Shown: in pieces, positions 43,726-45,196 of the stretch
Layout: each line of letters starts with the position of its first letter
How positions within the stretch are numbered: the stretch's first letter is position 1
From: Desulfobacterales bacterium
Lineage (GTDB): Bacteria; Desulfobacterota; Desulfobacteria; Desulfobacterales; Desulfosalsimonadaceae
Direction of reading: 5' to 3'
Assembly: GCA_034520365.1 (NCBI GenBank)
Contig: JAXHNP010000007.1
Coordinates: forward strand, 682,001 to 746,000
DNA length: 64,000 nucleotides
Notes under the pieces: model-generated
What the model was told of the DNA's origin: nothing
The model's database searches: none
The model's input: only the letters and a program-made list of their open reading frames with translations
Made by a program: the position numbers and the translations under genes

Positions 43726-44196
43726 ATGCCCGAAAACACATCTGAACACCGCAAAAACAGCAAGGCACCTGATAGCAATGGCCCCATTGACGTCACCTGC
43801 GCAATTATTGAGCATAACGGCCAGGTTCTGGCAGCCCAGCGCGGCCCGGCCATGGCCATGCCGTTTAAATGGGAGTTTCCCGGCGGAAAAATCAATCCGG
43901 GAGAAACTGCAGAAGACTGTATAATCCGGGAGATCAAGGAGGAACTGGGCATTGAGATCCAAATCAAAACCATGCTGCCGCCCTCAAGCCATGCTTATCC
44001 GGATCTTCATATCCGGCTTCATCCCTTTGTTTGCCGGATAACCCGGGGCCGCATTGAACCCGCAGAACACCATGCCGTTCAATGGACCGGCCATGACCGG
44101 TTACTGGCCCTGGAATGGGCAGAAGCGGATGTGGCTGTCGTCAAATCCTACCTGAATTATCGCAATCATCCAATTGCGTCGACAGCCAATTCATAG
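43726..44196 (+). CDS. Nudix hydrolase (MutT/8-oxo-dGTP-type)
   Basis: 156 residues. The Nudix box GGKINPGETAEDCIIREIKEELGIEI is complete when read at residues about 46-71 (G-x5-E-x7-REUxEExGU, quoted here in part: REIKEELGIE). WEFPGGKINPGE is typical of MutT-like pyrophosphohydrolases that clean oxidised nucleotides. The stop region runs antisense into a truncated DUF3800 gene (44141-44287). Confidence 0.88.
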   Translation: MPENTSEHRKNSKAPDSNGPIDVTCAIIEHNGQVLAAQRGPAMAMPFKWEFPGGKINPGETAEDCIIREIKEELGIEIQIKTMLPPSSHAYPDLHIRLHPFVCRITRGRIEPAEHHAVQWTGHDRLLALEWAEADVAVVKSYLNYRNHPIASTANS

Positions 44197-44287
44197 ACCG
44201 TTCAGGGACACAAATGCCGCCTAATACAAAATAGTCTTCGGTTGGGTTGGGGATAGAACCAGAATCATCTAAATACAAAAGATACAT
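44141..44287 (-). pseudogene. DUF3800 protein, truncated at 48 residues
   Basis: This frame is too short for ordinary ORF lists. It begins MYLLYLDDSGSIPNPTED and continues YFVLGGICVPERSMNWLS, which is the recognisable N-terminus of DUF3800 proteins (LDxSG ... YFVLGG). The ATG has GGAGG four bases upstream. After about residue 40 homology stops and a stop codon follows at 44141, overlapping the end of the Nudix gene. So the rest of the roughly 200-300 residue protein has been lost. It is the last element of the promoter - structured RNA - terminator - ORF array at 44306-44562. Confidence 0.75.
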
Positions 44288-44305
44288 TGTGCCTCCATGG
44301 ACAAC

Positions 44306-44341
44306 AAAAAAAACCCCAAGTTGGGTTTAATCAACTTGGGG
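44306..44341 (-). terminator. Strong intrinsic terminator between the RNA and the DUF3800 frame
   Basis: CCCCAAGTTG-ATTAAACC-CAACTTGGGG, a perfect 10-bp stem with an 8-base loop, followed by eight T on the minus strand. It ends 18 bases before the DUF3800 ATG. Such a terminator would let only part of the transcripts continue into the gene. Confidence 0.85.
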
Positions 44342-44526
44342 TAAGAAATGTCGTAGCCGGGTGAGGAATGAACCCCAACGAACCGCTTAATGCGGCTCTC
44401 CCGACCGAGTAATTGCTGGGTGAGACAAGCTCAACAAACCGCCATATTCGGCCTTCCCAACTATATAAATAATATCGGCACTGCTCAGAGAAAGTCTAGT
44501 TTTTAATAAATGTCATTCTCAATTTG
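44306..44526 (-). ncRNA. Candidate structured RNA with two homologous three-way-junction modules (DUF3800-associated)
   Basis: Transcribed leftwards from a promoter at 44532-44562 to the terminator at 44306. It contains two copies of one structural module (44415-44461 and 44356-44405). Each has an outer stem (GUUGGG/CCCAGC versus GUCGGG/CCCGGC), an arm GCCG...CGGU (versus GCCGC...GCGGU) and an arm UGAG/CUCA (versus UGGGG/CCUCA). The stems change in a compensatory way between copies, which supports real base pairing. Conserved single-strand-like segments include CGGUUxGUUG. I recall RNA motifs named after DUF3800 being reported upstream of such genes, but I cannot check which one, if any, this is. 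Confidence 0.72.
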
Positions 44527-44531
44527 AAGCC

Positions 44532-44562
44532 TTTATATGCATGAAAAATAGATTTTTGTCAA
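44532..44562 (-). promoter_or_regulatory. Sigma70-like promoter of the structured RNA
   Basis: TTGACA at 44562-44557 and CATATA/ATATAA near 44540-44533 with 17-18 bases between. Perfect -35 hexamer, so this is one of the strongest promoter matches in the window. It points into the RNA modules. Confidence 0.65.
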
Positions 44563-44599
44563 GCTCTCAATGAACAGCACTCAATGAACTTTTCATATT

Positions 44600-45196
44600 T
44601 TGACACGGTTCAAGGGTAATTTTTTCATCACACAAAACCCCACCATCCTTGACGATATGGAGGAAATACTGACATGGGCTGAATCTGAAACACCGGTTGC
44701 CGGCATCCGGCCGGATCTGCCTTTTGCCTGCCCACTGGAGCTTCATGCCCAATACGGATTCAAAGACATTTTAGCCGCCCTGGGGCAGGCCTCCCTTGAA
44801 ACAGCCGGCCAAAGAGGTGTCGGCATCGTTCATCTTCCGGATATAAAAGCCTACGGCGTCATGATCACCTTTCAGAAGACAGAAAAGGAGTTTTCACCCT
44901 CCACCATGTACGCTGATTTTCCGATCAGCCGGGAGCTGCTGCATTGGGAGTCCCAGTCAAACACCCGGCAAAATACCAACACTGGCCAAAACCTCATCCA
45001 TCATACCCAGCGCGGTTACACGATTTTGATCTTTGCCCGCAGCCATAAGCAGCAAAATAACTGCACGGTTCCATTCACCTACCTTGGCCCTGCAGCCTGC
45101 CAAAGCTACCAGAGCGAACGCCCCATACGGATGGTCTGGAAATTGGAACACCGGATGCCGGTGGAAATGTTCGAGGAAAACCGGAAGGGCGGATAA
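44600..45196 (+). pseudogene. C-terminal DUF3427-like fragment of a helicase
   Basis: About 198 residues. The C-terminal block STMYADFPISRELLHWESQ, THTQRGYTILIFARSHK-type (here HHTQRGYTILIFARSHK) and PFTYLGPAACQSY match DUF3427, which is normally the tail of a DEAD/DEAH helicase of more than 900 residues. No helicase domain is upstream, and the frame opens with a TTG near an AT-rich intergenic piece, so this is a truncated gene. Full-length relatives are typically accessory, defence-like proteins. Confidence 0.7.

Follow-up and report, generated by a model that had tools for sequence, protein, structure and literature searches.

A truncated DUF3800 gene preceded by tandem DUF3800-VI RNA modules: a possible remnant of a type III-like RNA-nuclease pair

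Results

The window analyzed here, a stretch of 64,000 nucleotides from a Desulfobacterales genome (contig JAXHNP010000007.1, positions 682,001 to 746,000), carries on its minus strand two modules of a structured RNA, an intrinsic terminator, and the remnant of a DUF3800 gene. The order of promoter, structured RNA module or modules, terminator, and DUF3800 gene is a conserved arrangement, kept in relatives on chromosomes, small plasmids, and phages. We judge the chances to be about even that these features are what decay has left of a mobile module with two parts, an RNA with its own promoter and terminator and a gene for a predicted RNase H2-like nuclease. The features of the element, from 5' to 3' on the minus strand, are:

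44557-44562, minus strand: TTGACA, proposed earlier as the -35 box; by comparison with relatives it lies off the conserved place
44469-44498, minus strand: weak promoter-like pair, TAGACT - 18 nt - TATTAT, positioned as in relatives
44413-44463, minus strand: first (5') RNA module, the second copy of the same motif; RF02915 at 31.9 bits, below the cut-off
44354-44407, minus strand: second (3') RNA module, a three-way junction, Rfam RF02915 (DUF3800-VI) at 58.8 bits, gathering cut-off 35
44306-44341, minus strand: intrinsic terminator with a 10-bp stem, an 8-nt loop, and eight T, from the sequence, a shuffle control, and counterparts in most relatives
44292-44296, minus strand: ribosome-binding site GGAGG, from the sequence
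44165-44287, minus strand: remnant of a DUF3800 (predicted RNase H2-like) gene, reduced to about 41 residues from about 250, from Pfam (20.3 bits) and comparison with the homologous locus L005

The RNA modules belong to a known family

The 3' module is a member of the catalogued Rfam family DUF3800-VI and is not a new RNA. It was returned by the covariance-model search of Rfam that had been called for in an earlier description of this DNA made from the letters and open reading frames, hereafter the sequence-only reading. The entry RF02915 is a single 52-position module, typed Cis-reg. The 5' module matched the same family with an E-value of 0.00017 in an 801-base search. The covariance model R1 also found both modules, with 62.5 bits for 44354-44407 and 51.4 bits for 44413-44463; R1 was built with both window copies included, and the independent Rfam scores are the fairer measure. 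Both models thus recover the pair of homologous three-way junctions that the sequence-only reading had described on the minus strand, and the stem covariation that it had claimed between the copies is real, with a U-A to C-G change between the two. The 3' module folded far better than its shuffles (z -4.47), and the 5' module folded alone was not distinct from them (z -1.01). Sub-threshold Rfam matches at 44305-44381 to NsiR1, anti-hemB, and others were rejected as nothing other than the terminator hairpin. A genome-wide search revealed no further copy of RF02915 outside the window.

To assess covariation, 23 modules drawn from the phylum, from plasmids, and from a phage were aligned, and the Rfam structure was the one put to the test. 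All three helices covaried, in that 94.1% of cells could pair compared to 37-46% when the partners were slid. Double changes occurred in 16 of the 20 pairs, and none of 500 shuffles reached any of five measures; relatedness inflates the shuffle control, and the slide control therefore weighs more.

The arrangement is conserved in relatives

The sequence-only reading had mentioned RNA motifs reported in front of DUF3800 genes, correctly, and the motif is DUF3800-VI. It had also named two findings that would count against it, stems that do not covary across genomes and no homologous RNA upstream of other DUF3800 genes; neither was obtained, as the helices covary and full-length genes in relatives are preceded by the RNA. 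In the look at module number that it had proposed, among 29 loci with this RNA type, 20 have one copy of the module and nine have two. Of the type III order that it had pointed to, the succession of RNA, terminator, and gene is conserved; tandem copies, as present in the window, are not the rule.

A separate hairpin terminator lies before the start codon in 22 of the 29 loci, and in five more the module has a T-rich end, that of L023 being weak; L025 and L143 have no terminator by the criteria used. Applied to 62 DUF3800 genes that do not belong to the clade described below, the same hairpin test gave 5 positives (Fisher p 1e-10, to be read cautiously, as the loci are related and hence not independent trials). 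The sequence of the terminator differs between lineages, and what is conserved is its position.

In a tree of 81 DUF3800 proteins, the genes with this RNA formed one clade (support 100/99), which comprises 18 rows of the tree including near-identical copies and L103, whose three-way junction is divergent. R1 misses the modules of L103 and of the enterobacterial plasmids, which were assigned by predicted fold, and L151, which R1 does not list, was assigned by reading its sequence only. No intact clade gene without the junction RNA was found, and there was no module-like match 5' of the other DUF3800 genes searched. The RNA does occur beside damaged genes: the gene is truncated in the window, absent in L029, interrupted by a stop in L025 and L027, and shortened in L028. 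An RNA that outlives its gene would fit an antitoxin that may outlive its toxin; yet the gene is the larger target, 750 bases against 60-110 for the RNA, and relaxed selection is another possible cause of broken genes.

Of 395 genomes from the phylum, 10 contain RF02915. The RNA is further found before DUF3800 genes on Paraburkholderia, Sphingomonas, Sinorhizobium, and Agrobacterium plasmids, and with DUF3800 in two Pseudomonas phages, beside CI/Cro genes. Small plasmids (3.6-12.5 kb) of Escherichia, Klebsiella, Enterobacter, and Citrobacter carry a divergent form of the RNA. In a search of 5426 E. coli genomes, RNA region and gene both occurred on the same 13 plasmid records, one of which is split by the start of the circular sequence, and on no chromosome. 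Predicted viral contigs added loci when an alignment was used as query; the exact DNA pattern had no match in them. Six matches to that pattern were obtained in genome contigs, five of which were protein-coding sequence of Brevundimonas and rejected as chance, the remaining one being L005, the closest full-length homologue. The plasmids of L034, L035, L043, and similar loci are mobilizable or cryptic, with little beyond replication/mobilization genes and the RNA-DUF3800 pair.

Promoter, terminator, and start of the gene

Among relatives, a sigma-70-like promoter ending 5-9 nt short of the first module is seen in most of 19 loci. At the corresponding place in the window are TAGACT (44498-44493) and TATTAT (44474-44469), ending 5 nt before the first module, and the best close counterpart is TTGACA-18-TATTAT in L005. 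The window pair is weak by itself, its score being matched by 6.5% of shuffles. The sequence-only reading had placed the promoter at the TTGACA beginning at 44562; this lies about 60-90 nt too far upstream, given that the promoters of relatives stand directly before the first module, and the assignment is probably wrong. The perfect 10-bp terminator with eight T was described correctly, and separates RNA and gene with stem arms at 44341-44332 and 44323-44314 and a T run at 44313-44306.

Downstream of GGAGG, a minus-strand open reading frame of 48 residues extends from 44287 to 44141 and aligns to positions 1-32 of the 149-position Pfam DUF3800 model, with a score just under the cut-off of 21 bits. 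The sequence-only reading had taken all 48 residues as DUF3800; the open reading frame is as it stated, but only about 41 residues are DUF3800-like, and comparison with the locus L064 indicates that the last seven come from the adjoining Nudix sequence.

The clade protein is predicted to be RNase H2-like

Folded from its single sequence, the L005 protein yielded a useless model (pLDDT 40), and with 17 sequences the model reached a pLDDT of 90.6. The top structural matches of the latter were RNases H2, with Z up to 10.6 over 130-164 residues. There was no ToxN-like fold among these structural matches, an absence that alone is no proof; searching solved structures by sequence brought up no relative, and Pfam identified only DUF3800 in the clade protein. 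Of 26 clade proteins, 25-26 keep D7, D/E8, D149, and D196 (L005 numbering), and we take the D-D/E-S-G motif to resemble the DEAG motif of RNase H2. The clade protein is accordingly modeled as having an RNase H2-like fold and not that of ToxN. The stub in the window retains the DDSG motif, without the acidic positions matching D149 and D196, and should be inactive with only the first acidic pair left. The earlier description of a type III toxin-antitoxin-like layout broken by truncation is upheld in the conserved order and the truncated gene, with a predicted protein fold other than that of ToxN.

The element lies in a disrupted restriction gene

The surroundings of the element comprise three further features:

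44165-44635, no strand assigned: foreign stretch carrying the RNA-DUF3800 element, from blastn and reading against L064 and L065
44600-45196, plus strand: C-terminal piece of a disrupted PLD-helicase-DUF3427 gene (DUF3427, 74.2 bits)
43726-44196, plus strand: Nudix gene beside the element (NUDIX, 68.8 bits; PADLOC PDC-S07)

The left edge of the foreign stretch is sharp, at 44164/44165, and the right edge is approximate, with protein similarity resuming at about 44635 and nucleotide similarity at 44654. In the relative G406 (L064), the same Nudix gene is followed by a long PLD-helicase-DUF3427 gene that PADLOC identifies as a type IV restriction enzyme; in the window, PADLOC maps 44600-45196 to positions 785-936 of 945 of mREase_IV, the type IV restriction enzyme. 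The alignment of the Nudix gene with L064 stops at 44164, beyond which the gene's final codons now continue into the DUF3800 remnant. The left junction has lost about five-sixths of the DUF3800 gene as well as about 2.5 kb of the restriction gene. The simplest history would be insertion of a complete element followed by one deletion. The element would have entered the type IV restriction-enzyme gene, and the later deletion would have taken the front of that gene and all but the first sixth of the nuclease, with the RNA left intact but without a partner. The only other DUF3800 gene of the genome, on contig C5, belongs to another clade. PDC-S07 is a defense candidate of PADLOC, and the Nudix and restriction-enzyme genes are found together in L064 too, where the restriction-helicase reading frame is broken near its C-terminus into open reading frames of 923 and 111 residues.

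Other DUF3800 genes have RNAs of their own

DUF3800-V (RF02964; L097, L102, L107, L113, L124) and DUF3800-IX (RF02968; L092) lie downstream of DUF3800 genes and on the opposite strand. A candidate VI-like junction RNA at L080:1341-1392(+), with an R1 E-value of 0.12 and a fold z of -3.64, has its own promoter-like site and T run; it lies downstream of a DUF3800 gene from a different clade, in convergent orientation. Because all of these RNAs are downstream on the opposite strand, they cannot be leaders of the nuclease mRNA.

A sister clade of DUF3800 genes (L077, L085, L168, and the viral or Leptospira-type L154-L159) has another three-way-junction RNA directly 5' of the gene. This RNA, GCGUCUGGG...CCCAGUCGC, has U-U mismatches and runs into a T tract in several members; in those scanned against Rfam, no family reached its gathering score. 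A model made from six copies found a seventh in genome G140 with an E-value of 7e-14, and covariation of this RNA is thin (two pairs). In L168 (G140:C14:8051-8110, minus strand), an intact sister RNA stands before a DUF3800 stub about 28 residues long, and is orphaned as in the window.

Discussion

Type III systems are defined by the order of promoter, RNA repeats, Rho-independent terminator, and toxin gene, and a strong promoter together with a terminator before the gene leads to much RNA and little protein (PMC5086642). In intact relatives of the element studied here, transcription would start at the RNA's own promoter and give a short discrete RNA in excess, and synthesis of the nuclease would depend on transcription reading through the terminator. 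By binding the putatively toxic nuclease, the RNA would then hold it in check, as in type III toxin-antitoxin logic, and the pair may serve plasmid maintenance or phage defense.

That the element works like a type III toxin-antitoxin system or a nuclease-RNA defense pair is the most likely reading, although we would put it no higher than an even prospect. It is supported by the covariation, by the single gene clade, by the frequency of terminators within and outside that clade, and by the promoter-like site before the first module, as well as by the plasmid and phage carriers, the predicted RNase H2-like fold, and the persistence of the RNA at loci whose gene is truncated, interrupted, or missing. 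We count against it that about two-thirds of the loci are single-module, compared to the repeat arrays of type III antitoxins, that Rfam types the family as cis-regulatory, and that the terminator is missing in L025 and L143 and the T-rich end is weak in L023. None of the CC-licensed papers naming DUF3800 that we consulted puts its toxicity to the test.

In this genome, the element could equally be a neutral relic whose RNA is conserved only because the deletion is recent. Its gene is cut at about residue 41, the promoter at the conserved place is weak, and the restriction gene is also broken; on the other hand, both modules keep the structure of the family, and several other loci keep the RNA after gene loss. 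Such a relic would concern the present role in this genome only and is compatible with a toxin-antitoxin-like role in intact relatives.

The RNA might instead be a cis-regulatory 5' leader of the DUF3800 mRNA, acting through attenuation by a ligand or autoregulation by the DUF3800 protein, as would fit its Rfam type, its location on the same strand as the gene with a terminator between them in most loci, and the distance of only 9-20 nt from module to start codon in L023, L143, L144, and L151. However, pairing between terminator arm and leader did not exceed that obtained after shuffling the leader (0 of 21 loci below p 0.05), so that attenuation by alternative pairing with an antiterminator found no support in these loci; furthermore, the RNAs of other DUF3800 clades are downstream on the opposite strand, and the DUF3800-VI RNA persists where the gene is gone or truncated. 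We regard a leader function as unlikely, while autoregulation through protein binding can coexist with a toxin-antitoxin role.

Equally little, and if anything slightly less, can be said for the RNA as a working cofactor (guide, activator, or sensor) of an RNase H-like nuclease in a defense complex and not an inhibitor: DUF3800 has an RNase H fold and its members serve certain class 2 CRISPR loci, types V-A2 and VI-F, as accessory nucleases (PMC10910872, PMC12669027), and the conserved acidic residues of the predicted fold, phage and plasmid carriage, and the defense-related neighbor genes in the window are in keeping with this, but the modules are compact junctions in which no variable single-stranded guide-like stretch was seen, a terminator limiting nuclease relative to RNA fits inhibition better than a stoichiometric effector, and RNA and gene are lost unevenly.

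Because attenuation was without support and the DUF3800-V, DUF3800-IX, and L080 RNAs are downstream on the opposite strand, we favor the RNA as a trans-acting partner of the nuclease, most likely an inhibitor, at about even odds, over both cis-regulation and an effector cofactor. More tentatively, and with some doubt, we propose that DUF3800 RNase H2-like nucleases preceded by three-way-junction RNAs may constitute a fourth, structurally unrelated type III-like lineage spread by plasmids and phages, in which orphan RNAs would be anti-addiction remnants protecting the host from incoming copies and the sister clade would have a second, uncatalogued RNA. In Rfam, the DUF3800-VI family has been listed as cis-regulatory with no function assigned, and the comparison made here turns it into a testable proposal of a discrete RNA, equipped with promoter and terminator and paired with an RNase H2-like nuclease on small plasmids and phages. 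If this is true, RNA antitoxins resembling those of type III systems have had more than one origin, involving nucleases of unrelated fold, and many other DUF3800 RNAs, as a broad class, would gain a function.

Comparison with known systems

The window modules share with Rfam DUF3800-VI the sequence, the three-way junction, and the place 5' of a DUF3800 gene; they differ from the Rfam description in that the module is doubled and followed by a terminator and the gene is truncated. DUF3800-V and DUF3800-IX are likewise structured RNAs paired with DUF3800 genes in the same phylum, but they are downstream, on the opposite strand, and beside other DUF3800 clades. The accessory DUF3800 proteins of the CRISPR V-A2 and VI-F loci have the same protein domain with its RNase H fold, whereas the clade proteins are short and single-domain and have an RNA of their own.

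With ToxIN, CptIN, and TenpIN, the element shares the order of promoter, RNA, Rho-independent terminator, and nuclease gene, and plasmids and prophages are among the carriers of type III systems. It differs in the predicted RNase H2-like fold, compared to their ToxN/MazF-like (MazF/Kid-like) fold, in often having one module, and in the putative nature of its toxin; its module is explained by a covarying nested three-way junction, and pseudoknots are reported for theirs. Because the toxin fold that defines these families was looked for and not found, the element as modeled is not a member of ToxIN, CptIN, or TenpIN, though it may work like them.
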